This document shows, in pieces, positions 1,408-28,073 of a stretch of DNA of 36,872 bases. Numbering within the stretch: position 1 is the stretch's first letter; every line of letters begins with the position of its first letter. Both the position numbers and the translations under genes were made by a program. The notes beneath the pieces are model-generated. The model made no database searches. It saw only the letters and a list, made by a program, of their open reading frames with translations, and was not told the DNA's origin. The stretch is from positions 1-36,872 of the forward strand of contig JAFMKE010000006.1 in the NCBI GenBank assembly GCA_017853115.1. Reading direction: 5' to 3'. This stretch comes from Verrucomicrobiota bacterium. GTDB lineage: Bacteria; Bacteroidota; Bacteroidia; Chitinophagales; UBA8649.

Positions 1408-3360
1408 ATGAATTTTAGACTTCAGAATATTATTATGCTTATTCAGATCATCGAAAATATCAAGTTTTTACTTTTCGTTTTACTGCTTTCCTCTTGTGGA
1501 GTAAACCAGGGTGTAGCTCAAGAAACGGAAGGGTCGAAAAAAGCGAAAGAAGCTTTTGCCAGGGCCGATGAACATCGTGTTTTTGGACGATACGAGGAGG
1601 CGATGGAGGCTTATCGTGAAGCCGTGGACATTGACCCAAACTTTTTGAAAGCCCATCAAGAACTAGCTCAGCTTTATCAGAAATTATATTTAGACTACGA
1701 ACAAGCCTCTATTCATTATGAATTTGTAGTGGCATTAAATCAGCAGCTACCCATGCAGTATTATGAAGGGGCTAAATGTTATTTATACCTTCAAAACTGG
1801 GAGAAAGCTATGCAATTTGCAAGTGAATTTGATGAGAAGAGAACTAAAAGTGACTATACTAATTGGCAAGCCCAGCAACTAATAGAAAGCATTTCCTTTG
1901 CCCGCGAAGCAGTCAAGTACCCCTTGGATTACAATCCAATCAATCTGGGCCCTGCAGTTAATACTGAACTTGCTGAATATTTCCCCTCCATTACCGCGGA
2001 TAACGAATTCATCTATTTTACGGTTAGTGACCCGAAGGATCGTTATCCCAACGAAGATATTTATTTTGCGCAATGGATAGAAGGTGCTTGGCAGGAAAGA
2101 GTTTCTGTAACTGGTGTAAACCGGATGAACGCTCAAGAGGGAGCACACAGTATTACCCAAGATGGAAAATATTTGTTTTTTGCCAGTGATCGAATGGATA
2201 ACAATGCGGGTAAATTTGATATCTACATTGCAAAAAAAGTAGGCGAGGAGTGGCGAGATGCGGTAAATATGGGCCCGGTTATAAATTCGCGCTACTGGGA
2301 GTCTCAACCGGTGATATCGGCAGACTCGAAAAAACTATTCTTTGTTCGAGCCAGCAAGGATGGCTTTGGTGGAAGTGATATCTATCTATCAGAAATAAAT
2401 GAAAATGGAAGTTTTGGCGAACCACAAAATTTAGGGGCTATTATCAATACACCAGGAGACGAGCAACGACCTTATTTGCATCCTGATGGAAAAACATTAT
2501 ACTTCGCTTCTAACGGACATCCTGGTTTCGGGAAAGCTGATTTATTTAAAAGTATTCTCCAGGAAGATGGTACTTGGTCGAAACCAGTTAACTTGGGCTA
2601 TCCGATTAATACCTCCGAAGTGGAGTTTGGTTTATACGTGGCAGCCGATGGCAAGCGAGCCTTCATTTCATCCGATAGGGAGGGAGGATATGGAGGAATG
2701 GATATTTATAGTTTTGAGTTGCCAAGCACGGCACAACCCTCTTCGGTGGTAAGTGTGAAAGGTTGGGTATATGATGCCCAAACAGAACAAGCCGTTAAGG
2801 CCAATATTAAGATCATAGAAATAGAATCACAAAAAGCATATAAAACCTTAAGCTCGGATGAGTTGAATGGTTCGTACTTGGTTGTCTTGCCTACGGGTAA
2901 GAATTATGCTTATCACGTGAATGCAGAAGGTTATTTGCCCTACTCAGCGAGTTTTTCTCTAAAGGATATTAAGTTGAGCGAACTTGTGGAGCTTAAATCG
3001 CCGCTGACACCAATCGAAAAGGGAGCTGGATTTGTTTTGGAGAATATATTCTTTGATTCAGGAGATGCTCAGCTGAAGGAGGAATCAAAGGCGGAATTGG
3101 ATTTATTGGTAAACTACTTGAAGGATTTGCCAGATATGATTTTAGAAATCGGCGGCCATACAGATAGTGATGGAAGCGAAGAGTCCAATGTAATACTCAG
3201 CGAAGATAGAGCCAAAGCAGTGTATGCCTATCTAATTTCTCAGGGAGTGAATGAATCTCGTTTAAGATACAAAGGCTATGGAGAGACTCAACCTTTGGTT
3301 CCCAATGACTCCGAATCCAATAAAGAGAAAAATAGACGCACCGCTTTCAAGGTGCTTTAA
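1408..3360 (+). CDS. PorE-like OmpA-family lipoprotein: TPR, five-bladed PD40 propeller, CarboxypepD_reg-like, OmpA_C
   Basis: Predicted outer-membrane lipoprotein of 650 residues. A hydrophobic leader ends in the lipobox LLLSSCG (Cys30; ATG 1435 would also give a good leader). Residues about 44-150 look like TPR helices. Five WD40-like PD40 motifs follow near residues 191, 245, 299, 352 and 405, with forms such as GKYLFFASDR and GGSDIYLSEI. A CarboxypepD_reg-like sandwich spans about 450-520 (VKGWVYDAQT). The OmpA_C peptidoglycan-binding domain spans about 545-650, with GGHTDSDGS and the Asp/Arg pair in LSEDRAKAV. This order matches PorE, the Porphyromonas gingivalis T9SS subunit that anchors the system to peptidoglycan, but Bacteroidota carry several paralogues of this build. 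Orthology to PorE is therefore an inference. An 8-bp inverted repeat follows the stop. Confidence 0.85.
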   Translation: MNFRLQNIIMLIQIIENIKFLLFVLLLSSCGVNQGVAQETEGSKKAKEAFARADEHRVFGRYEEAMEAYREAVDIDPNFLKAHQELAQLYQKLYLDYEQASIHYEFVVALNQQLPMQYYEGAKCYLYLQNWEKAMQFASEFDEKRTKSDYTNWQAQQLIESISFAREAVKYPLDYNPINLGPAVNTELAEYFPSITADNEFIYFTVSDPKDRYPNEDIYFAQWIEGAWQERVSVTGVNRMNAQEGAHSITQDGKYLFFASDRMDNNAGKFDIYIAKKVGEEWRDAVNMGPVINSRYWESQPVISADSKKLFFVRASKDGFGGSDIYLSEINENGSFGEPQNLGAIINTPGDEQRPYLHPDGKTLYFASNGHPGFGKADLFKSILQEDGTWSKPVNLGYPINTSEVEFGLYVAADGKRAFISSDREGGYGGMDIYSFELPSTAQPSSVVSVKGWVYDAQTEQAVKANIKIIEIESQKAYKTLSSDELNGSYLVVLPTGKNYAYHVNAEGYLPYSASFSLKDIKLSELVELKSPLTPIEKGAGFVLENIFFDSGDAQLKEESKAELDLLVNYLKDLPDMILEIGGHTDSDGSEESNVILSEDRAKAVYAYLISQGVNESRLRYKGYGETQPLVPNDSESNKEKNRRTAFKVL

Positions 3361-12276: not shown

Positions 12277-15200
12277 ATGAACAGTCTTTATGTTTTGCGT
12301 ATTCGCGCATTTGTTATTGCACTACTGGCAATTTTACTTTCAACACCTATTTCTGCTTATGCAGCTGCGTATCAAGCATCTTGGTTTACATCGTCTGTAA
12401 ATCAATGTGGAGGTTATGTAGATCTTACTTTTACAATGTACTATAACGCTTCAGGTACTACTAATGATGATTTTTGGGAAGCGGGTACATATCTCAGAAT
12501 GAAAGTTGGAAATGGAAGCTATTTTAATATTGCGCAGCTTATGCGAGGTTCTGGGACTTGGAATTGGAATCCTAACAATGATGGTGTTGTGGGTATTAAT
12601 CGTGTGTTGGAGTATACTTCCGGAAGCATTTCAAATCCGATTTATTCAGAAGTGCGAAAATTAGATCATATTAGCGTGAATGATAATTCAACAGTTGGTG
12701 ACGGTAGATTTGAAATTACAATGCGCGTATTTTTTAAAGGAACAGATGTGGGAAAAACCATTAGTTTCGATATAGATGGAGTTTGGGAAGATGGTGGTTC
12801 TGCTGGGGTGCAAACAGTAAACTTTGATAATACAGAAACTTTAAATACAATTACAGCTTCAGATGCGACCAATTGCAGTGGAACTGAAATTACTTGGACT
12901 GTACCTGCAGGACTTTGTTCGGGAACAAATGTTGAGATTTTTAGAGGAACAAGTTCAAATCTCATTGCTACGGTACCTGCGACTACTGGAGGCTATTTTG
13001 ATAATTCTGGAGTTCCAGGTCAGGTGTACCCATATTGGGCTAGGTTTTCTAAGGATTTCACCTATTCGTTTGCCCGGTATGCGATAAATGGCATTTCAGT
13101 TACTCAGCTTAGTAATGGGAGTTCCACTTTTTCAAATGCAGGGACAACCTCCTCCCAAGAAGATGGAGCGAGAAAAAATGTGCCTGATGCTCCTTCGAAC
13201 CTGGATGCTAGTACCACTCTCTGTGATACTGAGATAGATATTTCATGGGATTGGATTACAACGAACCCAGATTCATTTAGAATTGTTAAAGACGGAGTAA
13301 ATGTTTCAACTACGCTAGGAGGCTCATTACGAAGTTATACGGATACCGATATTAACAGGGGAGAGGTTTATACCTATGAAGTACAAGCAAAGAACAATTG
13401 TGGTTGGAGTTCTTATTCTAATTCGAAGGATGGAATTTCCCCGCTAGGTCCGTCTAGTCCAGCAAATTTTGAGGCATATATTGTTCCTGGCGTTGGTATT
13501 CAGTTAACTTGGGGCGAAACCCCTAATGCGACAAGCTATCAAATAGAAAGAAGTTTATTAGGTGGAGGAGGTTCATCTTTTTTCGATCCAGATGGTGCCG
13601 CCGATGACACCTCTTACTTGGATGAATCACTGGTGCAATGCCAAACATATGAATATAGGCTAAGAGCTTTCAATGATTGCTCATCAACCGGGGTGATAGC
13701 AGACACGATAATAACTACTAAACTTATTCCAGACCTATCAAACACTTTTGATTTAGCTTCTAACCCCTTTCAGGCAAGCAAAGGATATTATTCAGACCGA
13801 GTAGAATTGAGTTGGTCAGTGGCTAATAATGAAAACTTCGTAAATCAGTTTAAAATTTATCGAAAAATTGCAGGCTCTGCAGATGATTCTATTGTAATTG
13901 AAACAGTTAATTCAGGAAGCAATATTCACAATGACTTTCTTGCATTGGCAGGTGTTTTATATAAATACACCATTGTTGCTGAATCTCAATGTGAGCAAAC
14001 AACCTTAAAATCAAATCCTGCAAGCGTAATCGGATTTAGAAGTCCTATTGGCACAATTTCAGGTCAAGTAAGTTTCGCTGGAGGTATTGCGGTAGAAGGC
14101 GTTAAACTTAGTGCAAATAGTTCTTCTGGTAATACGGGGTATGCGCTTAATTTAGATGGATCTGCTAGTTTGGAGATTCCATATGCGGCTAACTTGAACT
14201 CTGTTAATGGCTTTACCACTGAAATTTGGATTAAGCCAACTTCTCAAACGGGTTACTTTGATATAGTAAATAGGCCTGGAGTTTTTATGCTTAAACATGA
14301 TAATTCAAATTATGAGTTTGAAGTTTTTCCAATCTCTGGACCAAGTGTGAAAGTTAGTTTATCAGATGCTTTAGTGAATTTGAATAATTTTAATCAATTA
14401 ACCGCTTCGTTACATGAAGATACTATGAGGATATTTCTTAATGGCAACTTGGCATCGCAAGCATTTTTTCCAAGTGCTAATTTAGCACAGAATACCAATG
14501 GTATAAATATAGGAGATGGATTTGAGGGTGTATTGGATGAGTTCAGATATTGGATTAAAGGAAAGTCTCCTGCTGCAGTTAATCAAGATTTTTCTAGACT
14601 AATGAATGGAGGAGAAAGCAATTTGGTGGTTTACCTGAAAATGAACGAAAATAGTGGAAGTTTCGCCTATGATTTCTCCCGTACCTCGGTTACCAATTTC
14701 AACAAAAACCATGCAAGTTTTATTGGCTCACCAAGTTGGACTTCTGATATTCCCTCTTCCTCTCAATTAGCAATAGCCTCATATACCAATGCTCAAGGTA
14801 ACTATGTTTTATCCGTACCTTACAGTGGTACTGGAGAAACTTTTGTGTTAACACCAAGTTACTTGACCCATGTATTCGATCCATCTACAAGAGCTATTTT
14901 TGTAGGTGAGGGCTCAACTGTTTTTAATAATATTGATTTTGATGATATATCATCTTTTACAGTTCAAGGACGTTTAATTTACGCAAACACTTCATGCACA
15001 GCCGAAGGAGCTACCCTTTTGGTTGATGGCAATCCGGTAGTTTCGAATGGCTCAATCGTAAAAACGGATGCACAAGGAAATTTTTTAATTCAAGTACCTA
15101 TTGGTGATCATTATATTTCAATAGAAAAAAGTGGTCATTTTATGAGCGTTGGACGCTTCCCGGAAACAGGAACATATCCTTTTCAAAATGATTTGGCGGG

Positions 15201-18200
15201 AGTTAATTTTCAAGATTCTACCCTACTTAAAGTTGTTGGGCGTGCGGTAGGTGGTTTAAAGCAAGCAAGTTATATTCCAGGACTAGGTAAATCAAAGAAC
15301 AACATTGGAACAGCCGAGATAATTATTAAATCACAGCAAGGAAATGGTTGTTTTACAGATACGGTTTACACAGATGCTAGCGGGGAGTATTACATGTATG
15401 TACCTCCGTTAAGATACATTCCGACTATCACTATACCTAGTAACCCTACTATTGATTTTGGTGTTTTGGATTTATTGGATATGACAAATGCAACGGATGA
15501 AATTGTTTTTTACGACACCACAAGTACAGGTAGTGTTGTTGATTCGATTGTTTTAAATAAGCAATTAGATTTCATTCATCGGGTTAATCCTGAGTTGATT
15601 GTTTTGAATAGGGATGGTGATGGTGATTTTATAGGAGACACAACGTATACTTACATTCACGTCAATGGAGATACCATAGTAAGGAACCTGAAAACAAATC
15701 CATTTCCGTGGCCGGTTTTTGATGGTGTTTTTAAAGACAAAAAATATACATGCACTATCACGGCATTTGAGACCTACACTAATTTCGACGACCCCCTACA
15801 ACCTGTTTTAGATTCAGTGCCCACTACAGATGGGACATTAAATTTTAATAACCAGCTTTGCATTTCGCCGGTTGTTTCTGCTGAAATGTCCGACATCAAT
15901 ACCCTGGATTCTTTGAGATATTTAGAATATACCTTTGACTTAGGTGCTCCAAATTTCAATCAGAATGCTAGCATACCTGAATATAGTTTTGTAAAGACAT
16001 TTCAGTTGAATCTAAATCTTCCTAATGGGGTAACAATACCTTGGAAACCTGATGTTTTTAATGGGAATGGATCTCCTGCTTTTAATGCAGTTTATGATCA
16101 AATTTTCAGAGGATATGTGTTGGGCACTAAATCTGATGGGCAGCAATTTGTGACAGCAGGCCCGCAAGTTCCAGAATACGTATTAAGAGACCCGCCAGGA
16201 AGTGGTAGTTTTGCTTCAAGAGAGACGGGGTCTACAAAAACCACAAAGAGAGAATGGTCCTGGGCTTTAGGAGGAACAAGAAACTCTGAACTAAGAGCTT
16301 ATGTTGGACAATCTTTTAGTACGGGAATTGGTGTACAAATAAACACAGAGATTTCACAAGATCAGTTTTATGGCACTGAAACTACCGCATCTGGCAGTCG
16401 ATCAGGAGTAGAAACTGTCTCTATAATGAATACACAGTCATGGTCTACAGATAGCAGTCCTAACATGCCTGGACGGAATAGTGATTTGTATATAGGTAAA
16501 TCGAGTAACATGACTTATGGAATATCAGAAACGCTCAAGTTGGTACCCGACTCCATGTGTTCTACTGTTGATTGCATTATACCTACAACAAATACTGACT
16601 CTTTTGCTATGGCTAAGACTTATGGTGTTTCTATAGTCCCACAAGGATATAGTACTCAGTTTCTTTACTCAGAAAATCAAATTAAAAATCAGTTGATTCC
16701 TGACTTGATCGAACTGAGAAATGCCTTACTTAGTAATCCAGCAAAGTACACAAGTCTATTACCAATAGGACATCCCAATTACGGCTTGAATAATGACGAC
16801 CCAAGAATTACTGGAGAAACGGCCATTGTCAATGCTGAGGATATTATTGAATATAAGTTAGGAATGTATGACGAGAGTTATTCGCAGCCTATTATTCTTG
16901 GAACTGCAATACCGTATTCGGAAACGCATTATGAATCATCTGCAGCACAAGAGGCAAAATGGAGTTTATTCACTAAATACGATGGTGTTGACTCTTTATC
17001 GATTGCGGGACAAAGTTACATTTATAATGCTTTAACCTTGCAAGATTCTTTAACAGGAGATAGTGTTCGATGGATAAATAATCAAATAAAACTATGGGAA
17101 GAAACCATCATGTTGAATGAGTGGGAAAAAGTAAACATAAGCGATCCCGTAATCCGCTCAAAAATGAGAGATATTGAGTTGACAAAATTGTATAAGGAGT
17201 ACGAAGATTATATAATTGCCTACAATTCATTGCAAGCGTCCTCTCTTGTGGCTACAATTGCTTTTGTTGCATCAGGAATAGTCCCTTCTCCGGCTGCGGG
17301 GGTTGCGTTTGGTGTGAAAGCAGCATTAAAGACCAGTATTTACGAGCTCAAAAACATTATTTATGAATATCAGTCGAAAAGTGCGTTAATTTATGATCGG
17401 TATAGTCAAACACCGAATAATTTTTCTATTAGTAGTGGCGTAACTTTTACATCAAGTGCCAGCCATAAAACTATGAAAAGTGTTAAAACGGGCATAGATA
17501 TGCAGTCCAGTTTCGGATTTGCTCTTGATTTGAGTTTAAAAGTTAACGGAACCGGGTTGGCTAAAACAAAAGGCCTTAAGTTAACATATGATACCAAAAC
17601 AGCTACGATAAATGATAATGACACTACAGAAACAGTTAGTTTTACATTATATGATCCGGATCAGGGAGATTTCTTTTCTGTTAATGTTTTCCCCTCGTTA
17701 ATAGGTTGGGGACCTGTATTTAAGTTAGCTCCGGGCGGTAAAACTTCTTGTCCTTTCGAAGATCGAGTTTTAACGGAATACTATTTAGATGATCCAAATA
17801 ATCCAAGTCCGAATAATCTTTATGCTCCAAATTTTCTTTTAAGTGACAAAACACAGCAGAGAGATAAGCCTGTTATTTCAGTTGCCCCTAGTTTATTAAC
17901 GAATGTGCCAGTAACTGACCCTGCGGTATTTAATCTAACAATTGGCAATGAGTCTGAAAGCAATGATGTGAGAACATACAAAATTGCTCTTCAATCAACA
18001 AGTAACCCTTTTGGAGCAATTGTTAGTGTTGATGGATCTACTGTCTTTGCAGATGTTACAATAGGCCCTAATAGCTCTGTAAATAAAGTACTTGCTGTAG
18101 AAAAAGGACCTGGTCCAACCTATAATTATGATAGTTTATTGATAGTTGTGTATGCTGAATGCGATCCGTCAATAAGAGATAGTGTTTATGTGAGTGCGCA

Positions 18201-21200
18201 TTTTTTACCGACTTGTACGGATGCTAGTTTAGCTACACCAAATAACCAGTGGGTGTTAAATAACAATTTTAATGATACTATGCCAATAGCTGTCATAGAT
18301 TACAACGTTAATTTCTTTGATTTTAATAGTATTCGTTTGGATTACAAATCAAGTTCATCGCCACAATGGATTGGTTTACAAACTTTTTACCGGGACACGT
18401 CAGGTCTGAATAATCCGACGGCAATAGAGATACCAAACAATGTGCCCTTTACCTTATGGGATTGGGAAACAGATCAAATTGTAGATGGAAACTATGATTT
18501 GCGCTTAGTTGCGCAGTGTTCTTTGGTGGACAAGATTTCTCCAACGCATTCGGGTATAATGGATCGAATAAATCCACATCCATTTGGAACTCCAAGCCCT
18601 GCTGATGGTATTTTAGATCCTGAAGATGATATCTCTATTCGTTTTAATGAACCTATCGATTTAGGAAGCTTAACCTCACTGAATTTTGATATTCGTGGAG
18701 TGATAAATGGAAGCGAAACAAATCATGCAAGTAGTCTATATTTCGATGGTGTTGATGATTATGTTGAAGTGACAGGTGGTGCCCCGCTCCAACGAAGAGA
18801 CTTCACTGTAGAGTTTTCAGTAAAACGAGGTGCTCTTGGTGCAGAGCCTATAATTACTCAAGGTATTGATGCAAACGAACAAATTTATGTAGGATTTGAT
18901 AATGGAAACCATTTAGAATGCCGAATTAACGGCCAAAGCATAAAGTCACTAAATACATATACAGATAATCAATGGCATTATTTTGCAGTATCTTATTCTT
19001 ATGAAAATGAAGTAGTTGAAATTTTTGAAGCTTCTAATTCTTCTACAGCTGCAATTATTAATACTGGGAATACAGCCATGTTTGAAAATTACATAGGGAA
19101 CGATAAGCTTTTTATCGGAAAAGATGTTGCAAGCGGATCGTTTTTTCGGGGAAATATAGATGATGTTCGTATATGGAATACAGCTAGAAGTTTGAATGAG
19201 TTTAGTTTGACGAAATCGATTCATCTGAGTTCTAATGAGTTGGGACTACTATATAATTGGCGTTTCGATGAGGCAGATGGTATTTTTGCTAAAGACCATG
19301 TACGCTCAAGAGATGGAATAATAGTAGGAGCGGAATGGAGTGTTGATCCTGGAGGAAGTGCTGTAGTTTTTGACGGCGCAAATGATTATTTAAGAATTGA
19401 AAAGGGTGATGTTAATATTACCCGAGGTATGGATTACACTTTAGAATTTTGGTTTAATTCGACTCAAACAGCGGCAGCTACGCTTGTATCAACAGGGCTT
19501 GGTGATGGAATAGGCGCTGATTCTTTGTTTGCTTGGAACATTGAAAAAGATAGTTTGGGGAATATTCACGTTTACCATAACGGAGAAGATTTTATAGCGA
19601 CTAATTCAAATTATTTTGACGGGGAATGGCATCATTTGGCTTTAGTTTTAAATCGTTTGGGCAATCTCACATCTTATATTGATGGTAACTTAGAAAACTC
19701 GGTTCAGGCCACCCCTTTCAAAGATTTAGGTGGGCCGGCTTTTTATATAGGTGCAAGAGGATATTATATTGGGCCAACGGAATTAGTGGATAATTTCTTT
19801 GAGGGTATGATTGATGAGTTTAGGTTTTGGGATGCATCAAGAAAATTTGAGCAAATAGCCAGAGACAAAAATAACAGGATGTTAGGTGATGAATATGCTC
19901 TTCGTGTTTACATGCCCTTTGAAGATTACCAACTTGATCCAACGGGTATTGCTATTTTAACTCCAGGTTTGAATGAACAAATAGACCCAAGTCATCTTGT
20001 TACCAATCCGAATGGGGCGGTATTGTCGCCACTTACACCTAAGATTAAGTTACAAAGGCCAGTAGAGAGTATAGCTTTTACTTACAGTGTTAATAATGAC
20101 GAAATTATAATTACTCCTACTACAAATCAGGCTTTGATTGAAAATGTTACTCTTGATGTGACAGTCAGAGACGTAAAGGATTTGAACGGTAATATTATGG
20201 AGTCTCCAAAAACATGGATAGCATATATGGACAAGAATCAAGTAATCTGGCAGGATGATTTGCTGGTCTTTGATAAAATGTTTGGAGCAAGTTTAAATTT
20301 TAGTTCTACTATATCAAACGAGGGGGGAGCCGCAAAGAATTTTACTATTGAGAACATTCCAGATTGGTTAACGGCCGTGCCAACTTCGGGCATAATTCAA
20401 CCAAATTCTCAAAGGGTTATTAATTTTTCTATAGATCCAGGAGTTAATATTGGGGATTATTCTCAAGATATTCAGTTGTTAACAGATTTCGGATATCCTG
20501 AAAAGTTAACAATTGATTTAAAAGTCAGAGAAGAAGAACCCAATTGGGTAATTAATCCTGCTGATTACGATTATTCGATGAGTATTATAGGGTATTTGAA
20601 AATTAAAAACGTTGTAAGCACGAGCGAAGAAGATATTCTTGCAGCGTTTGTTAACGACGAATTAAGGGGCGTTGCACATCTACAATATGAACCATTATTG
20701 GATAGGCACCTCGTCTTTTTGGATGTGTATAGTAACGAAACGAATGGAGAGGATGTAAGTTTTAAGATTTGGGATGCAAGTTCTGGAATTCAATATACTG
20801 AGGTAACTCCGTTGATTATTCCATTTGTTGAAAACGAGATTATTGGAACACTTGCTACTCCACAACCTTTTGAAACTAATTATGAGATAGCATTTGATAT
20901 AACATTAGTTCAAGGATGGAATTGGATTGGGAATTTTCTTTATAATCAGGATTCTACAAATTTGGATGTCACTTTTGAGAGTCTGCAGTCTGAAACTGGC
21001 GATGAGATAAAAACTTTAACCCATGGATTTTCGAGCTATCTTGACACGATTGGTCTTCCAGTAGGTTGGCAAGGAGATATTAATGAGTATGGAATTCGAC
21101 CTGAATTAGGCTATAAACTTAAAGTTAGTCAATCAGATACCTTAGTGTTGAAAGGAGATGTTTTAGATCCAACATCTAGATTGATACAGTTAAGTGAGGG

Positions 21201-22095
21201 TTGGAATTGGATAGGTTTTATCTCGATTAGGAATCAAAGCGTTGATCAAGCTTTGGGTAACCTGAACGCTGCCGAGGGAGATTTAATAAAAGGAAAATCA
21301 CAGTTTGCAATTTATAGTAATCAACTGGGTTGGGTTGGAAGCCTTCAAACTATGGTTCCTGGCGCAGGATATATGTATAAATCGGCGAACACGGTAGATT
21401 TTGTTTACCCATTTGCAGGAATGTTTAAAAGCGGCTTGAATCAAGAGGAGAATGTGTACACGCATGAGCTTTGGCAGGTAAATCATGGAAGATTTCCAAC
21501 AAACATGACTGCAATTTTTAAGATTGAATCGGATTGTGATTACATAAATGATAAGCAAGATTTAACACTAGGTGTTATCGATGATAGTGGTATAATAAGA
21601 GGTGTAAGCCCAATAGATATGTTAGAAAATAATGGTTTGAGTTTCGCTACGTTTGGAGGAGAAATTAAGGAAGATTTAAATCTAAGAATTCTCGATAATA
21701 GTACCTTAGAAAGTTATCTTATTCAGGATAAGATTGAATTTTTAGCAAACGGTCACCTTGGTAGCTTAACTAATCCAAGCGTTATTCAAGTAAGTGAAGA
21801 GCTTTGCTTTAAGATGCAGTCTGATGCTGGTTTGTTAGCAGATTATTTCAAAGTATACCCTACCTTAATTGGAGAGGAGCAATATATGGATATCGTTGCT
21901 TTTGAAGAGGCCTATTCTACAGCAGCGCTATATAATGTTTGGGGCCAAAAGGTTTGGGAGGATGATTTGATTTTGGAAAACGGGTTTAATCGTCTTAACC
22001 TGAGTTTTAACAATTTGGAATTAGCTCCGGGCATCTATCACTTTACAATTGAGAATGGGGGCAAACAACATTCGGTTAAGTTAATCGCTAAGTAA
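12277..22095 (+). CDS. Giant T9SS-secreted multidomain protein (Fn3, CarboxypepD_reg-like, LamG, Big_5-like, type A sorting domain)
   Basis: 3272 residues with a Sec signal peptide ending near ISAYAA. Seen in order: N-terminal beta region (30-190); Fn3-like domains starting near 195, 302, 391 and 486; a CarboxypepD_reg-like sandwich (591 onward) interrupted by a LamG/concanavalin-like domain (617-823); two more CarboxypepD_reg-like units near 892 and 984; Ser/Thr/Gly-rich beta stretches (1320-1430 and 1718-1770) around a helical island (1524-1713) with a hydrophobic core at 1655-1684; an Ig-like domain near 1867. Two LamG domains follow (2153-2351 and 2362-2560), set inside a split Big_5-like Ig domain, then a BACON-like domain (2650-2750), a module shared with the next gene (2754-2865), two WNWIG repeats (2879 and 2973), and a type A sorting domain (3190-3272) with VYPT, NVWGQKVWE and LAPGIYHFTI. 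Function unknown; carbohydrate or matrix binding is plausible. Upstream, TATTTTCG at 12197 is only a weak promoter box. Confidence 0.93.
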   Translation: MNSLYVLRIRAFVIALLAILLSTPISAYAAAYQASWFTSSVNQCGGYVDLTFTMYYNASGTTNDDFWEAGTYLRMKVGNGSYFNIAQLMRGSGTWNWNPNNDGVVGINRVLEYTSGSISNPIYSEVRKLDHISVNDNSTVGDGRFEITMRVFFKGTDVGKTISFDIDGVWEDGGSAGVQTVNFDNTETLNTITASDATNCSGTEITWTVPAGLCSGTNVEIFRGTSSNLIATVPATTGGYFDNSGVPGQVYPYWARFSKDFTYSFARYAINGISVTQLSNGSSTFSNAGTTSSQEDGARKNVPDAPSNLDASTTLCDTEIDISWDWITTNPDSFRIVKDGVNVSTTLGGSLRSYTDTDINRGEVYTYEVQAKNNCGWSSYSNSKDGISPLGPSSPANFEAYIVPGVGIQLTWGETPNATSYQIERSLLGGGGSSFFDPDGAADDTSYLDESLVQCQTYEYRLRAFNDCSSTGVIADTIITTKLIPDLSNTFDLASNPFQASKGYYSDRVELSWSVANNENFVNQFKIYRKIAGSADDSIVIETVNSGSNIHNDFLALAGVLYKYTIVAESQCEQTTLKSNPASVIGFRSPIGTISGQVSFAGGIAVEGVKLSANSSSGNTGYALNLDGSASLEIPYAANLNSVNGFTTEIWIKPTSQTGYFDIVNRPGVFMLKHDNSNYEFEVFPISGPSVKVSLSDALVNLNNFNQLTASLHEDTMRIFLNGNLASQAFFPSANLAQNTNGINIGDGFEGVLDEFRYWIKGKSPAAVNQDFSRLMNGGESNLVVYLKMNENSGSFAYDFSRTSVTNFNKNHASFIGSPSWTSDIPSSSQLAIASYTNAQGNYVLSVPYSGTGETFVLTPSYLTHVFDPSTRAIFVGEGSTVFNNIDFDDISSFTVQGRLIYANTSCTAEGATLLVDGNPVVSNGSIVKTDAQGNFLIQVPIGDHYISIEKSGHFMSVGRFPETGTYPFQNDLAGVNFQDSTLLKVVGRAVGGLKQASYIPGLGKSKNNIGTAEIIIKSQQGNGCFTDTVYTDASGEYYMYVPPLRYIPTITIPSNPTIDFGVLDLLDMTNATDEIVFYDTTSTGSVVDSIVLNKQLDFIHRVNPELIVLNRDGDGDFIGDTTYTYIHVNGDTIVRNLKTNPFPWPVFDGVFKDKKYTCTITAFETYTNFDDPLQPVLDSVPTTDGTLNFNNQLCISPVVSAEMSDINTLDSLRYLEYTFDLGAPNFNQNASIPEYSFVKTFQLNLNLPNGVTIPWKPDVFNGNGSPAFNAVYDQIFRGYVLGTKSDGQQFVTAGPQVPEYVLRDPPGSGSFASRETGSTKTTKREWSWALGGTRNSELRAYVGQSFSTGIGVQINTEISQDQFYGTETTASGSRSGVETVSIMNTQSWSTDSSPNMPGRNSDLYIGKSSNMTYGISETLKLVPDSMCSTVDCIIPTTNTDSFAMAKTYGVSIVPQGYSTQFLYSENQIKNQLIPDLIELRNALLSNPAKYTSLLPIGHPNYGLNNDDPRITGETAIVNAEDIIEYKLGMYDESYSQPIILGTAIPYSETHYESSAAQEAKWSLFTKYDGVDSLSIAGQSYIYNALTLQDSLTGDSVRWINNQIKLWEETIMLNEWEKVNISDPVIRSKMRDIELTKLYKEYEDYIIAYNSLQASSLVATIAFVASGIVPSPAAGVAFGVKAALKTSIYELKNIIYEYQSKSALIYDRYSQTPNNFSISSGVTFTSSASHKTMKSVKTGIDMQSSFGFALDLSLKVNGTGLAKTKGLKLTYDTKTATINDNDTTETVSFTLYDPDQGDFFSVNVFPSLIGWGPVFKLAPGGKTSCPFEDRVLTEYYLDDPNNPSPNNLYAPNFLLSDKTQQRDKPVISVAPSLLTNVPVTDPAVFNLTIGNESESNDVRTYKIALQSTSNPFGAIVSVDGSTVFADVTIGPNSSVNKVLAVEKGPGPTYNYDSLLIVVYAECDPSIRDSVYVSAHFLPTCTDASLATPNNQWVLNNNFNDTMPIAVIDYNVNFFDFNSIRLDYKSSSSPQWIGLQTFYRDTSGLNNPTAIEIPNNVPFTLWDWETDQIVDGNYDLRLVAQCSLVDKISPTHSGIMDRINPHPFGTPSPADGILDPEDDISIRFNEPIDLGSLTSLNFDIRGVINGSETNHASSLYFDGVDDYVEVTGGAPLQRRDFTVEFSVKRGALGAEPIITQGIDANEQIYVGFDNGNHLECRINGQSIKSLNTYTDNQWHYFAVSYSYENEVVEIFEASNSSTAAIINTGNTAMFENYIGNDKLFIGKDVASGSFFRGNIDDVRIWNTARSLNEFSLTKSIHLSSNELGLLYNWRFDEADGIFAKDHVRSRDGIIVGAEWSVDPGGSAVVFDGANDYLRIEKGDVNITRGMDYTLEFWFNSTQTAAATLVSTGLGDGIGADSLFAWNIEKDSLGNIHVYHNGEDFIATNSNYFDGEWHHLALVLNRLGNLTSYIDGNLENSVQATPFKDLGGPAFYIGARGYYIGPTELVDNFFEGMIDEFRFWDASRKFEQIARDKNNRMLGDEYALRVYMPFEDYQLDPTGIAILTPGLNEQIDPSHLVTNPNGAVLSPLTPKIKLQRPVESIAFTYSVNNDEIIITPTTNQALIENVTLDVTVRDVKDLNGNIMESPKTWIAYMDKNQVIWQDDLLVFDKMFGASLNFSSTISNEGGAAKNFTIENIPDWLTAVPTSGIIQPNSQRVINFSIDPGVNIGDYSQDIQLLTDFGYPEKLTIDLKVREEEPNWVINPADYDYSMSIIGYLKIKNVVSTSEEDILAAFVNDELRGVAHLQYEPLLDRHLVFLDVYSNETNGEDVSFKIWDASSGIQYTEVTPLIIPFVENEIIGTLATPQPFETNYEIAFDITLVQGWNWIGNFLYNQDSTNLDVTFESLQSETGDEIKTLTHGFSSYLDTIGLPVGWQGDINEYGIRPELGYKLKVSQSDTLVLKGDVLDPTSRLIQLSEGWNWIGFISIRNQSVDQALGNLNAAEGDLIKGKSQFAIYSNQLGWVGSLQTMVPGAGYMYKSANTVDFVYPFAGMFKSGLNQEENVYTHELWQVNHGRFPTNMTAIFKIESDCDYINDKQDLTLGVIDDSGIIRGVSPIDMLENNGLSFATFGGEIKEDLNLRILDNSTLESYLIQDKIEFLANGHLGSLTNPSVIQVSEELCFKMQSDAGLLADYFKVYPTLIGEEQYMDIVAFEEAYSTAALYNVWGQKVWEDDLILENGFNRLNLSFNNLELAPGIYHFTIENGGKQHSVKLIAK

Positions 22096-22101
22096 GTTAA
22101 T

Positions 22102-23406
22102 ATGAAGATTCTGAGATTAATCTATGTTTTTTTCGCGTTGTTAACTCTTCAAGAGATTACAGCACAAACTCCAAGCTGGACAATTAATCCTGCCAATTAT
22201 CAATATACAATGTCTGTAATTGGTGTGGGGCTTTTTGATTGCGAACAAACCGGTGATTCTAATGATATGGTCGCTGCTTTTATCAATGATAGTTTAGCAG
22301 GTTTTGCCAAATTCAATACTATCATTGGATCGAACGCTTATGCGTTCTTGACGGTATACAGTAATGTGCCGGCTGGCGAAATAATTGAATATAAACTTTT
22401 TGATTCGTCGAGTAGTCAGATTGAGGATGCAATACTCGGAGATGTGTTTCAACAAAACGCTTCGATCGGAACAGCTATTACTCCCTTCGAGTTTAAAACG
22501 GACTTTGTCCTATCAAGTTTAAGTCTATTGAACGATACGATTTATGATTATAGTAGCGCTGGAGATACTGTTTCCAGCCTCCTGCTTTTGAATGAGTTAA
22601 TGGCTCAGGAGCAGGCTAGCTATACCTTCGTTAATGATTCAAGTGGTATAGACAATTTAAAATTTAGTTTGATAGGAGACTATTTAATTTTAGAAGAAAC
22701 TGTCGACATACTGGTTCAAGAAAGTTATCAAATTCATATTAGAGCTACTTCTTTAACAGGATGTGTTTTGGACGAAATTTTTACAATTTCGGTCTTCAAC
22801 ACCAATGTTCCTCCTACAGATATAATACAGAATCCTGCATATGTGGATGAAAATAATTCCATAGGTGCCTTCATAGCTTTATTGCAAGCTGTTGATGCTA
22901 CTCCTATAGATTATCATAATTTTGAATTAGTAGGGGCCGCTGATATTTGGCCGGATAATGAGGCATTCATTATTAATTATGACGAGTTACTCGCAAATAA
23001 AGTATTTGATTACGAAGAACAAAATGAGTTCAGAATACAAATCGAAGTAAAGGATGCCACGGGGAATAGTTATTTGGATACATTCACTGTGATTGTTGTT
23101 GATGAAATTGAATCAAACGAGGGGTTAAAAGCACCGAACTATATTAGCCCGAATGGAGATGGTGTAAACGATTTTTTTATCATTGAAAACGTTGAGCTAT
23201 ATTTTGATTATAGTTTGTATTTCTATAATGATAACGGCAATCTGGTGTATAGCAATGAAGGTGCATACGATAATTCGTGGAATGGAATTTCCAATAAGGG
23301 GCAAGAGTTGCCATCTGCCACTTATTTCTTTTATTTTGTCAATCGAATAAATGAAGCAGAAAATTTTAAAGGAAAGGTAATGATTGAAAGGCCTACAAAA
23401 TATTAA
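22102..23406 (+). CDS. Secreted protein with cadherin-like domain and T9SS type B (gliding-motility) sorting domain
   Basis: A 434-residue protein with a signal peptide (MKILRLIYVFFALLTLQEIT, then AQ). Residues 23-135 form a module homologous to one near the end of the giant protein (PSWTINPANYQYTMSVIG, then AAFINDSLAGFA and LTVYSN). The middle contains two cadherin-like stretches (about 140-235, then NVPPTDIIQNPAYVDENNSI near 240-335). The C-terminal 90 residues are a type B sorting domain: YISPNGDGVNDFFIIENVE, then LYFYNDNGNLVYSNEGAYDN and SWNG. Known type B cargo such as SprB needs a cognate SprF/PorP protein, and exactly such a gene starts 2 bases after this stop. The giant gene ends 6 bases before it. 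It may be the structural partner or attachment point of the giant protein, which is an inference. Confidence 0.9.
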   Translation: MKILRLIYVFFALLTLQEITAQTPSWTINPANYQYTMSVIGVGLFDCEQTGDSNDMVAAFINDSLAGFAKFNTIIGSNAYAFLTVYSNVPAGEIIEYKLFDSSSSQIEDAILGDVFQQNASIGTAITPFEFKTDFVLSSLSLLNDTIYDYSSAGDTVSSLLLLNELMAQEQASYTFVNDSSGIDNLKFSLIGDYLILEETVDILVQESYQIHIRATSLTGCVLDEIFTISVFNTNVPPTDIIQNPAYVDENNSIGAFIALLQAVDATPIDYHNFELVGAADIWPDNEAFIINYDELLANKVFDYEEQNEFRIQIEVKDATGNSYLDTFTVIVVDEIESNEGLKAPNYISPNGDGVNDFFIIENVELYFDYSLYFYNDNGNLVYSNEGAYDNSWNGISNKGQELPSATYFFYFVNRINEAENFKGKVMIERPTKY

Positions 23407-23408
23407 TT

Positions 23409-24611
23409 ATGAGAAAGTATTATATTTTATGTTTTTCCTTTATTCTGAGTATTAGTGTTGTTCGATCTCAATACACATTAACTGATAACGATATTAATTT
23501 TAAAAAGGCATCCTACAATTCCTCAATGATTGTTGCAGATAGTAACAATTTGGTTTTAAATCTAACTACATCGCTAAGCGATAATTTGCAGCAAACTTCA
23601 AGAATGCATTTATTGGCTTATGGAAATTTTGCTCCTTTGGGTTTAGGAATAGGAGTCAAATTCAATTCACGATTTAAGAGTTATTTTGAAACAACAAGTG
23701 CCGAATTTTTGATTGCAAAAAATATCAACTTTGATGATGCGAACACATTGAATTTCGGAATGAATTTCGGAATTGAGTATATTGGAATTAATCCTAACTT
23801 TTTTAATCAGTTTGTAGATCAAACTGATGAGTTTATACAAAGTAATCCCACACAAGGAGTACGATTTATAACTGGATTTGGAGCCAGTTACAGCTGGCGA
23901 AATAAGTTGATGTTGGGATTTTCGATGCCTGAGTTGGTTAAGACTACAAGTGATTTTTATCCTACCATTTTTTCTAATGTTGCTTATAAGCAACCACTTG
24001 GTAAGATTGGTACAATGTATGTCCAACCTGAATTGTTTTTGTATAGTACTAATATAGCTCCAGCAACCCTTGAAGGTTCGACTAGTTTTGGATATAAAAA
24101 TTATACTTGGCTGAAACTTGGTGCAAGGTCAAATAAAACCTTGATTCTTGGCCTTGGTGGAGGATACAATTTTGTAGAAGTTGGGTACAATTACAATATG
24201 AATTTTAGTAATTATCAGGTAGTTAATCAAATGCAGCATAATATCAATGTTTGCTTCAACTTCTTGCAAATGGGGAAATCAAAAGCGTTAACGAATGAGA
24301 ATAATGATTCATTTAAAGGTGATATTTCAAATATTGATTTTCCATACGCTGTGACAACCACTAAAGTTGAAAGTGAAATTCAATCTAGATATTATATTGT
24401 AGTGGAGTCATTCAAAACTGAGGATGAGGCTTTAAATGTTGTAGATAATCAGCTTAGTCAAGGTCAAAAATCATTTATCATAAGGGAAGTAAATTCTGGA
24501 ATTTACCATGTTTGTTTAGATAATGATAATGACTTTGATGAGATTACAAATAAAGTGATTTATATAAAAAACAACATGCATCCAGATGCTTGGATTATTG
24601 AAAATAAATGA
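23409..24611 (+). CDS. PorP/SprF-family outer-membrane protein with C-terminal SPOR domain
   Basis: A 400-residue protein with a signal peptide ending VVRSQ. Residues about 22-295 have the PorP/SprF pattern of an outer-membrane beta-barrel: the opening YTLTDNDINFKKASYNSSMI corresponds to the usual QYMFNxxxxNPAYAG start, followed by alternating strands such as LNFGMNFGIEYIGINP, SWRNKLMLGFSMPELVKTTS and LGLGGGYNFVEVGYNYNMNF. The family normally ends near 300 residues. Here about 75 more form a SPOR-type domain from residue 325 (SRYYIVVESFKTEDEALN to HPDAWIIENK), a fold that in known members binds denuded peptidoglycan. Immediate adjacency to a type B cargo gene fits the known SprF role in type B export. 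A very weak AT-rich hairpin lies at 24615-24632 after the stop. Confidence 0.85.
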   Translation: MRKYYILCFSFILSISVVRSQYTLTDNDINFKKASYNSSMIVADSNNLVLNLTTSLSDNLQQTSRMHLLAYGNFAPLGLGIGVKFNSRFKSYFETTSAEFLIAKNINFDDANTLNFGMNFGIEYIGINPNFFNQFVDQTDEFIQSNPTQGVRFITGFGASYSWRNKLMLGFSMPELVKTTSDFYPTIFSNVAYKQPLGKIGTMYVQPELFLYSTNIAPATLEGSTSFGYKNYTWLKLGARSNKTLILGLGGGYNFVEVGYNYNMNFSNYQVVNQMQHNINVCFNFLQMGKSKALTNENNDSFKGDISNIDFPYAVTTTKVESEIQSRYYIVVESFKTEDEALNVVDNQLSQGQKSFIIREVNSGIYHVCLDNDNDFDEITNKVIYIKNNMHPDAWIIENK

Positions 24612-24665
24612 TAGAAAAGAATTCAATCTTTTAAAACGTGAATAAATTTTTAAACAGGAAATAAT

Positions 24666-27600
24666 ATGTATATAATTTTTCATTTATCAATGGGATTAAT
24701 TCGCGCTTTGAAAAGTTATATGCTTTTTTTTGTGTTGATGTTGGGCGTTGGACTTAGTGCACAAACTTTCACTAGTGGAGTGCCATTGTCTAGCCCGAAC
24801 TCTTCAGGGATTTTGAACCCCTATCCAAACAATATAACGGTATCTGGTATCGGAGATATTAGTTCGGTTAGTGTAACATTGATAGGAGTTACGCACTCTT
24901 ATTCAGCAGATTTAGAAGTTTTGCTGGTAGGGCCAACAGGAGCTTCTTCGATATTGATGTCTGATGTGGGCCTTGGAAATGATTTCCTGAATGATAATAT
25001 TACTTTCCAAACAGGAGGTGCCCCTTTTGCAGTAGCCTCAGGAACTTATGCACCCATTGGTTCAGATTTTAATGGAGGTGCTCCAGCTCCTTCTGGTCCA
25101 TATTCAGCTGATTTAAGCGTGTTTGACTTTACAAATGCTGACGGAATTTGGAGTTTGTATGTTAATGATGATGCAGTTGGAGATTTTGGAGGGATTTCAG
25201 ATTGGAGTTTATCGTTTACATCCACCATACTGAGAGATACTACGGTAATCATTAGTTGCGATAATTATATAACTCCCTGGAATGATACTATTTATCAGTC
25301 ATCATTTCAGTTTGATACTATTCGAGATATTAATGGATTAGATTCTTTTTATAATGTTTATGATATTACAATTAATAACTATTTAGATCCAATATTATCC
25401 GTATCAGGCCCGGAATGCAGTCCAAATCCTAGTTTCAACTTTACGGCTACTAGCTCAAATCCTAATATTTCTACTTTCAGATGGTATAATCAAGTTGTTG
25501 GGGGAAGTTTGCTAAACACGGGTCCAAATTATGTTGCAAGCTTCAATGCTACTTCAAGTGTATTTGTTTCACAAGGAGGTCAGTTAGCTCCCTTCCCAGC
25601 GCAAACAAGCCTTAATACTGGAGCAAATACGGGAGGATACTGGTTTGTAGCTCCTAATGCTTTTGTAATCACTTCTTTGTTTGTCCCGACAAGTGATAGT
25701 TCGAAATTTCAAAATATTGCAGTGATTAGAATGGATGATAATTTATCTCCTCCGACAGCTAGTCTCAGTACTAATGATTTTAGCACATTATTTATTACCC
25801 AAGTAAATCCCACTCGTGGCAGTATAGCAGTAAACATACCCATTCAGGCTGGGGAAGTTATTGGTATTTTGGGATCTAGAGAATCTGACAACTCCTATTC
25901 AAATGCAAATAATCAAACGATTATTAATGGGGATACAATACCTCTAAAGAGAATTGCTTTTCCCGGTCTTTTAACTACAACGTCACCATACAATGTTAGT
26001 TCTTTTCCTCTGGTTTCGAATATTTCTAGGGTTTTATTCGAGTATTCTTCTTCCAATGTTTGTATCAATCCGGATCGCACTGAAATAGAAGCAATAGTAA
26101 ATCCTGTTTACTTAACAGAAATAGATACTATAGTTTGTGATTCATTAGTTTTTGCTAATGGCATGAGTTATGATTTTAGTCAATCGATTTATGATTCTCT
26201 GCAGTCTGTCAATGCTTGTGATAGTATTGTTAAATATAATTTAGTGGTTAATTATTCTACCTTTGACACTATTGTAGCGGCGGCTTGTGATTCATTTGTA
26301 TCACCCTCAGGGACGGTTTATTTTAATTCAACTACTTTCTACGACACTACGTTTTATGCAACGGGTTGTACAAATGTTAAGTACATTGACTTGACAGTTA
26401 ATTCAAGTTCTGTTGATACAGTTGCCATAACTCAATGTGATGAATTTACAACCCCCTTGGGAATTACGTTTACCACTGATACATTTTATGGGGAAATGCT
26501 TCAATCTGTTAATTCATGTGATAGTTTAGTTTATTTTGATGTTACTATTAATGTAAGTGAATTTACTTCCCAAAACATAATTGCCTGTGATGAATATTCA
26601 ACAGGTTTAAATGGCCCAACGTATTATACTTCAGGCATTTATTTTGACACCTTACAGACAGCGCAGGGCTGTGATAGTATTCTGGAAACTAATCTAGTGG
26701 TCAATTACAGCACTTTGGATAGTATAGTTGAGACGCATTGTGATGTTTACACTTCCTCCAATGGCAATATCTATACCACAAGTACAATATTTTATGATAC
26801 ATTGATTACGAATAGTAATTGTGATAGTTTGGTATATGTTGATTTAACGATTAACCAAAGTACTTTTCAATCATTAAGTGTAACCGCCTGTGATTACTAC
26901 TTTTCTCCAGCAGGAGATTGGTACACCACGAGCTCAATTTTTTCGGATACTTTGACAACTTCTAACGGCTGCGATAGTATTATAAATATCGATTTAACTG
27001 TAAATTATAATGAAAATGTCAATAATTATATTACCGTTTGTGATACTTTCGTATCACCTTTAGGGTTTGGATATAATTCTAGTTCAATTTTCACGGAAGT
27101 TTTAACCACATCTGCGGGTTGTGATAGCTCTGTCACTTTTTTCCTAACAGTTAATCAGTCTGAAATTAATGATGTTGAAGTAGTTGCATGCGAAAGTTAT
27201 ACATCCAATTCTGGTGATGTTTTTACTTCTAATGCAATGTATTCTGATACTTTATCAACTATTTTTGGTTGTGATAGCATAGTTAATTTCGAGGTAACTA
27301 TTTTAAATCCAACATTGGATCAAATAAGTATAGCAGTTTGTGATGAATTTGTTTCTTCATCAGGCACTTTATATACTACTTCGCAAACAATATATGACAC
27401 TTTAGCTTCTCAGTATGGTTGTGATAGTATTGTACAAATTGACTTAAATATAGGTCAATCGGAGCTTGAGACAATTTACCCTGAGGTTTGTGATATATTC
27501 ACTTCAAGTGGCGGGATAACTTATAACACTTCAGGCGTGTACGTGGAGTCTTATAATTCTGTTCAAGGCTGTGATAGTATTATAACTATTTTTCTTGAAG

Positions 27601-28073
27601 TCAACCCAGTTATACTCCATATTAATAAGGAAGGGAATGTATTGGAGTCCTTGGATTTTGAGGCAAGTTATCAATGGTTAAATTGTACTTCTGGTGAAAT
27701 TGTTTCAGGCGAAACGTCGCGAGTTTTTGAAGCTCCATCAAATGAAAGCTATGCTGTTATTGTGGATAATGGTTCTTGTATTGATACTAGTGATTGTGTT
27801 TCAGTTAACTCAATTGGTACAAGTACATTTTGGATTGAGAATATACAGCTAACTTTTTATCCAAATCCGGTAAGAGACCTCTTGATTATATCCGCAAGCC
27901 ACTCTTTAGATGATATACCATACAAATTGATAGATATAAGTGGAAGAATTGTTAAAAGTGGTGTTTTATATGGCAATGTTAATGAGCTTTCCTTAGATAA
28001 TGTTTCACAGGACGGTGTACTTTTCTTACAGATCCAAGACAAGTCTATTCCTATATTAAAGATGCAGAAATAG
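24666..28073 (+). CDS. T9SS-secreted P-domain protein with ten 50-residue Cys repeats and type A sorting domain
   Basis: 1135 residues with a signal peptide ending VGLSAQ. ATG 24690 (MGLIRALKSYMLFF) is the neater start, giving 1127 residues. Residues 35-190 are a proprotein-convertase P-domain (DLEVLLVGPTGASSILMSD, then WSLYVNDDAVGDFGGISDW). A degenerate repeat follows (about 190-236), then an Ig-like CHU_C-type domain (about 245-303 and 463-483) split by an inserted beta domain of about 155 residues. Ten tandem repeats with a CD...GCDS cysteine pair span 484-984. The C-terminal 80 residues are a type A sorting domain (FYPNPVRDLLIIS, LIDISGRIVKSG, GVLFLQI). Expected at the cell surface through T9SS. 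There is no protease domain, so the P-domain is likely adhesive. It follows the PorP/SprF gene after 54 bases, co-directional, and converges on smc. Confidence 0.88.
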   Translation: MYIIFHLSMGLIRALKSYMLFFVLMLGVGLSAQTFTSGVPLSSPNSSGILNPYPNNITVSGIGDISSVSVTLIGVTHSYSADLEVLLVGPTGASSILMSDVGLGNDFLNDNITFQTGGAPFAVASGTYAPIGSDFNGGAPAPSGPYSADLSVFDFTNADGIWSLYVNDDAVGDFGGISDWSLSFTSTILRDTTVIISCDNYITPWNDTIYQSSFQFDTIRDINGLDSFYNVYDITINNYLDPILSVSGPECSPNPSFNFTATSSNPNISTFRWYNQVVGGSLLNTGPNYVASFNATSSVFVSQGGQLAPFPAQTSLNTGANTGGYWFVAPNAFVITSLFVPTSDSSKFQNIAVIRMDDNLSPPTASLSTNDFSTLFITQVNPTRGSIAVNIPIQAGEVIGILGSRESDNSYSNANNQTIINGDTIPLKRIAFPGLLTTTSPYNVSSFPLVSNISRVLFEYSSSNVCINPDRTEIEAIVNPVYLTEIDTIVCDSLVFANGMSYDFSQSIYDSLQSVNACDSIVKYNLVVNYSTFDTIVAAACDSFVSPSGTVYFNSTTFYDTTFYATGCTNVKYIDLTVNSSSVDTVAITQCDEFTTPLGITFTTDTFYGEMLQSVNSCDSLVYFDVTINVSEFTSQNIIACDEYSTGLNGPTYYTSGIYFDTLQTAQGCDSILETNLVVNYSTLDSIVETHCDVYTSSNGNIYTTSTIFYDTLITNSNCDSLVYVDLTINQSTFQSLSVTACDYYFSPAGDWYTTSSIFSDTLTTSNGCDSIINIDLTVNYNENVNNYITVCDTFVSPLGFGYNSSSIFTEVLTTSAGCDSSVTFFLTVNQSEINDVEVVACESYTSNSGDVFTSNAMYSDTLSTIFGCDSIVNFEVTILNPTLDQISIAVCDEFVSSSGTLYTTSQTIYDTLASQYGCDSIVQIDLNIGQSELETIYPEVCDIFTSSGGITYNTSGVYVESYNSVQGCDSIITIFLEVNPVILHINKEGNVLESLDFEASYQWLNCTSGEIVSGETSRVFEAPSNESYAVIVDNGSCIDTSDCVSVNSIGTSTFWIENIQLTFYPNPVRDLLIISASHSLDDIPYKLIDISGRIVKSGVLYGNVNELSLDNVSQDGVLFLQIQDKSIPILKMQK
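26115..27617 (+). repeat. Ten tandem coding repeats of about 150 bp
   Basis: The encoded unit is about 50 residues, of the form D-x-I-x-x-x-x-C-D-x-[FY]-x(15-17)-[FY]-x-[DE]-x(8)-[GNS]-C-[DT]-S-x-V-x-x-x-L-x-[VI]-N. All ten copies keep both cysteines about 27 residues apart; copy 2 reads GCTN instead of GCDS. The units diverge clearly at DNA level, so this is an old protein repeat rather than a recent slippage array. An earlier degenerate copy lies at about 25236-25374, where the second Cys is replaced by Leu (INGLDSF). Confidence 0.9.

Follow-up and report, generated by a model that had tools for sequence, protein, structure and literature searches.

The stretch of DNA analysed here (the window, 36,872 nucleotides) carries four forward-strand genes in close succession: a giant type A cargo of the type IX secretion system (T9SS), a type B cargo that we call the companion, a PorP/SprF-family outer-membrane protein and a further cargo, separated by gaps of 6, 2 and 54 bases (Table 1). 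Recomputed open reading frames agreed in every length and gap with those of an initial annotation of this DNA. The SprA translocon is encoded in the same genome (TIGR04189, 2457 bits), which marks the organism as T9SS-bearing. The first three genes form a tight unit and, judging from the sequence, are probably transcribed together; sigma-70 and terminator scans of the locus gave results at or near chance level. The nearest open reading frame with an OmpA tail (1408-3360) lies 9 kb upstream of the giant.

Table 1. Features of the locus, with positions in the window.
Feature	Position	Strand	Basis or remark
Giant type A T9SS cargo, 3272 aa	12277..22095	+	ORF, profiles, relatives 38-43% identical
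Undescribed conserved core of giant, residues 1190-2140	15844..18696	+	Defines the giant family
First of two very long beta-hairpins predicted in core; rich in Ser/Thr/Gly, low confidence	16210..16446	+	AF2, local pLDDT mostly 32-50 mid-hairpin
Second very long predicted beta-hairpin of core, after helical segment, low confidence	17443..17652	+	AF2
W-domain 1 of giant, residues 2754-2877	20536..20907	+	W-domain profile
W-domain 2 of giant, residues 3066-3176, weaker match	21472..21795	+	W-domain profile, E 1.2e-13
Type A C-terminal sorting domain of giant	21907..22092	+	TIGR04183
Companion, type B T9SS cargo, 434 aa	22102..23406	+	CHU_C, TIGR04131
W-domain of companion, residues 23-140, directly after signal peptide	22168..22521	+	Profile; AF2 pLDDT 94.8
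Companion Cys47	22240..22242	+	Co-conserved with Cys221 (22762-22764) in 7/8 aligned close companions
Cadherin-like domain of companion	22837..23094	+	Pfam, below cut-off
Type B C-terminal sorting domain of companion	23128..23385	+	CHU_C / TIGR04131
PorP/SprF-family outer-membrane protein, 400 aa	23409..24611	+	PF11751
SPOR-like C-terminal domain of PorP/SprF protein	24372..24608	+	PF05036 17.3 bits (cut-off 21); alignment with other PorP SPOR tails
Fourth gene, 1135 aa: P-domain, repeats, type A-like tail; neighbour outside the unit	24666..28073	+	Pfam/TIGR profiles, relatives

The sorting signals that the initial annotation had assigned to the first two cargos were borne out by profile searches. 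For the giant, TIGR04183 reached 28.1 bits over the last 110 residues and 23.1 bits over the whole protein against a cut-off of 23, and Pfam Por_Secre_tail remained below its own cut-off; the C-terminal domain (CTD) of the companion scored 45.3 bits with TIGR04131 (cut-off 35) and 70.4 bits with CHU_C (cut-off 27). The third gene, read before as PorP/SprF, passed PF11751 (48.3 bits, cut-off 22.3) but not the stricter TIGR03519 (57.8 against 90.55). Close companions have in common a signal peptide, a W-domain (described below) and a cadherin-like domain with a co-conserved cysteine pair, and the co-conservation of Cys47 and Cys221 suggests that an inter-domain disulfide may be formed.

The giant runs from an fn3 domain through three LamG domains and a carboxypeptidase-regulatory-like domain to the conserved core, which is followed by Big_5, two W-domains and the type A CTD. 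The core is undescribed in any library used here; searches of Pfam up to E 5 and of the PDB by sequence gave no match. Its AF2 model (pLDDT 76, pTM 0.64) places two very long predicted hairpins on either side of a helical segment; a fold search of the PDB returned mostly generic Ig-like tandem domains at low TM-scores and did not identify the long hairpins. In this model the hairpins faintly resemble the stem region of some pore-formers, a likeness that we treat as a lead only, and the alternation of hydropathy along them is just 1-2 standard deviations over background. Four further giants were found first, each having as its next gene a companion that opens with a W-domain, and together with the giant of the window they are 38-43% identical in pairwise comparison over approximately 3100 aligned residues, except for one pair of the five at 72%. 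A literature search found no description of such giants.

The main point of the locus, which the initial annotation had missed, is a domain common to the giant and the small cargo. This W-domain, of approximately 115 residues, occurs twice near the C-terminus of the giant and once in the companion. Its first sign was a match of the companion sequence to giant residues ~2750-2870 at 38% identity, and the copies were then located by a profile built from the shared domain. The companion copy is modelled with high confidence as a beta-sandwich. Searches of Pfam gave no family, merely scattered single-member matches, and the PDB yielded no match by sequence and none by Foldseek at E 0.001; the best fold matches, which are non-significant (E 0.03, TM 0.43), include starch-binding CBM20 proteins. 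Across 299 genomes of the host's order, where matches were inspected contig by contig, the W-domain is confined to giant reading frames or the adjoining reading frame, apart from a few matches where the giant is truncated by the end of the contig. Rare exceptions occur in the wider phylum, namely a 435-residue reading frame with a single copy (L145; L numbers refer to loci in other DNA), a cluster with no detectable core (L144) and, at L146:7268-15073, a peptidase-like reading frame of 2601 residues that has two W-domains and no giant core.

We then turned to the wider occurrence of the pair. A check of conserved synteny, named beforehand with the initial annotation, gave a divided answer: giant and companion are strongly conserved together, but the four-gene block is not. 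With the giant core as query and the neighbourhoods of the hits fetched, 32 loci from 25 genomes across the phylum (the window and 31 others) were found to have a W-domain companion directly downstream of a core-bearing giant. Among the 299 genomes of the order the W-domain (threshold E 1e-10) was detected in 35, the core in 37 and both in 32 (Fisher p 2e-34, the genomes not being independent of each other). Among giants that are shorter and more distant (L089-L094, L096 and others), most have two W-domains and no companion, and the companion is therefore not always needed. One giant, L019, lies on a contig titled Saccharospirillaceae (Pseudomonadota); it is nearest to Bacteroidota on the core tree, and the contig is probably a mis-binned one from Bacteroidota. 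Genes for a sensor kinase and a LytTR-type regulator adjoin the giant on its upstream side at L016, L065 and L019, and none were seen in the window. Directly upstream of the giants of L072, L137 and L142 are proteins with ends like phage tail-collar tips (e.g. RPKNMNFWIYIRIN).

The fourth gene has a different distribution. Its relatives are common in genomes that lack a giant, and it was not seen at the module loci that were read; it is therefore a neighbour only, and the four-gene unit was discarded as the fourth gene is not conserved at that place. Its type A domain falls below both cut-offs (PF18962, 23.7 of 27; TIGR04183, 21.7 of 23). By eye, position 24690 gives a better signal peptide and is probably the start, which would widen the preceding gap to 78 bases.

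What might the shared domain do? Our preferred reading is that of a two-protein T9SS surface assembly, in which the W-domains couple both proteins and the companion serves as the exchangeable anchor of the giant; on the sequence evidence we give this an even chance of being right. The earlier suggestion of a type B protein that may keep hold of the giant gains backing from the domain common to both, with physical contact between them being presumed. Several observations weigh against the preferred reading: most of the distant giants do without a companion, the SPOR match of the window is below cut-off and the other two PorP proteins of the module have no such tail, and the type B cases number three. 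The chief rival, which we consider rather unlikely, is that the W-domain is a ligand-binding module in both proteins, for example a carbohydrate-binding one, and that giant and companion are exported separately and bind the same target with no mutual contact. A beta-sandwich of this size whose best, if non-significant, fold matches include starch-binding domains would suit such a role, as would companions with several W-domains (four in L097), the occurrence of two copies outside the pair in the L146 protein, and lipoproteins consisting of a W-domain alone, which could be surface binding proteins. A generic binding module, however, would not be expected to remain confined to giant and companion within an order, nor would its second carrier always be the directly adjoining gene.

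It is improbable, in our judgement, that the companion acts during export instead, as a chaperone or capping partner for folding of the giant or its exit from the translocon. The giant gene comes first and is tightly coupled to that of the companion (gaps of 1-33 bases or an overlap in many loci), and a W-domain sits close to the CTD of the giant, both of which would fit such a helper; most companions carry signals for surface sorting themselves, and stretches of repeats that extend to more than 3000 residues, and this fits a lasting surface protein better. That a type B/PorP pair came to follow a giant type A gene by chance is very improbable and nearly excluded for giant and companion, given 32 recurrent loci with a shared domain and the co-occurrence within the order, even though such pairs are common and 13 PorP-family genes in this genome score above cut-off; for the fourth gene, chance neighbourhood still holds.

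Support for an anchoring companion comes from the way in which its own attachment changes between loci. A type B CTD above cut-off is present in the companions of the window, L017 and L086, and in 3/3 cases a PorP gene is next. Seven companions have a type A CTD above cut-off (L069, L070, L082, L084, L095, L097 and L101), and those of L016 and L065 are type A-like by eye only. A coat-hanger GCX_COOH tail was detected by profile on the companions of L066 and L067. The genome G179 has three giant-companion loci (L066, L067 and L135) with coat-hanger-type companion tails, two recognised by profile and that of L135 by eye. At L071, L076 and L103 the companion is reduced to 137-146 residues, that is, a lipobox signal peptide (by eye) and a W-domain alone. 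Downstream of the 19 non-B companions with readable DNA no PorP gene was found, compared with 3/3 for type B (Fisher p 6.5e-4, with loci treated as independent, PorP sought with a two-sequence profile and three type B cases). PorP would therefore belong to the anchor of the companion and not to the invariable components of the system. On the core tree the three loci with type B companion and PorP do not group as a single clade; one well supported set of five includes companions of type B as well as type A-like ones. A constant pair with a variable attachment of the companion is the pattern expected of an anchor.

Type B cargo is known to need a cognate PorP/SprF protein for its export and to stay bound to it (PMC9143113, PMC12618676, PMC12635249), and by analogy the PorP/SprF protein of the window is expected to bind, export and anchor the companion. 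The Cys-X-Cys tail by which SprF is linked to the gliding track (PMC12635249) is absent from this protein, which has cysteines only at 8, 282 and 369, and a gliding adhesin is disfavoured for that reason. For static type B proteins, a tie to the wall (peptidoglycan) via PorE has been proposed (PMC12618676); no PorE-like gene was found beside the PorP/SprF gene, the next gene being the fourth cargo. Equivalents of the SPOR-like tail in three related genomes pass PF05036 (L110, 23.8; L113, 21.3; L118, 30.4; cut-off 21); no such tail is present on the PorP proteins of the module at L017 and L086. From the missing Cys-X-Cys motif, the SPOR-like tail and the PorE tie proposed for static proteins, we take the companion to be, in all likelihood, a static anchor linked to the wall.

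A literature search on SPOR with PorP/SprF found no description of such fusions. Fused SPOR tails (L110, L113, L114, L118) or OmpA-like tails (L111, L112, L119 and, in the organism's own genome, L134 at G000:C137) are frequent on PorP/SprF proteins of the order. The initial annotation was right in the direction of its interpretation but wrong on the fourth gene and on its dedicated PorP/SprF-SPOR protein, which was overstated as a rarity given the 13 PorP-family genes here and the PorP-SPOR fusions common in the order; we therefore dropped PorP-SPOR as a special feature.

Under the two-protein assembly that we prefer, the giant would leave the cell via its type A CTD, and the companion would be exported via its type B CTD and then be taken up and retained by the adjacent PorP/SprF barrel. 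The periplasmic SPOR-like domain of the barrel would bind peptidoglycan, as its family suggests, which would make the anchor a static one. The giant and the companion would be joined by their W-domains, which lie near the C-terminus of the former and at the N-terminus of the latter, and the giant would thereby be held or positioned on the cell surface by the companion. Companions of other lineages would fill this role by means of a lipid anchor, a coat-hanger tail or a type A CTD. More broadly, and only tentatively, the locus may represent an undescribed system of Bacteroidota, in which a giant whose unique core may be a long beta-hairpin structure docks via a private domain on a companion whose anchor (lipid, type A, coat-hanger or PorP/SprF-SPOR) has been freely swapped in evolution.

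Type A and type B export have been studied as separate routes, and here one private domain is carried by both kinds of cargo. With the giant-companion pair, anchoring of a surface protein in trans becomes open to test, and, since PorP is present only with a type B partner, the loci form a natural series in which to ask what a partner protein gains from the type B/PorP route. The analysis also gives names to the W-domain and the giant core, neither of which is described in the libraries used here.

To conclude, we compare the locus with systems already known. The static, PorE-linked kind (Fjoh_3952/3951/3950; PG1035/PorP/PorE of Porphyromonas gingivalis) likewise has a protein with a type B CTD encoded beside a PorP/SprF gene, together with an expected peptidoglycan link and no Cys-X-Cys gliding tail. 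There PorE is a separate protein, whereas in the window a SPOR-like domain is fused to the barrel, and the type B/PorP pair comes after the gene of a type A giant that has a domain in common with the type B protein. The SprB/SprF gliding adhesin of Flavobacterium johnsoniae also unites a giant surface protein and a PorP/SprF protein in one unit. However, SprB is a giant that itself has a type B CTD and moves on a track via the Cys-X-Cys tail of SprF, whereas in the window the type B CTD belongs to the small partner, the giant has a type A CTD and the Cys-X-Cys motif is absent. The PorP-SPOR and PorP-OmpA fusions of the order share with the window a PorP barrel fused to a domain of a peptidoglycan-binding family (SPOR-like in the window) but, in the DNA read here, do not lie beside a W-domain giant. 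The pairing of type B cargo with PorP is thus already known, and what is new is the private domain, the conserved pair of giant and companion and the apparently exchangeable anchor.
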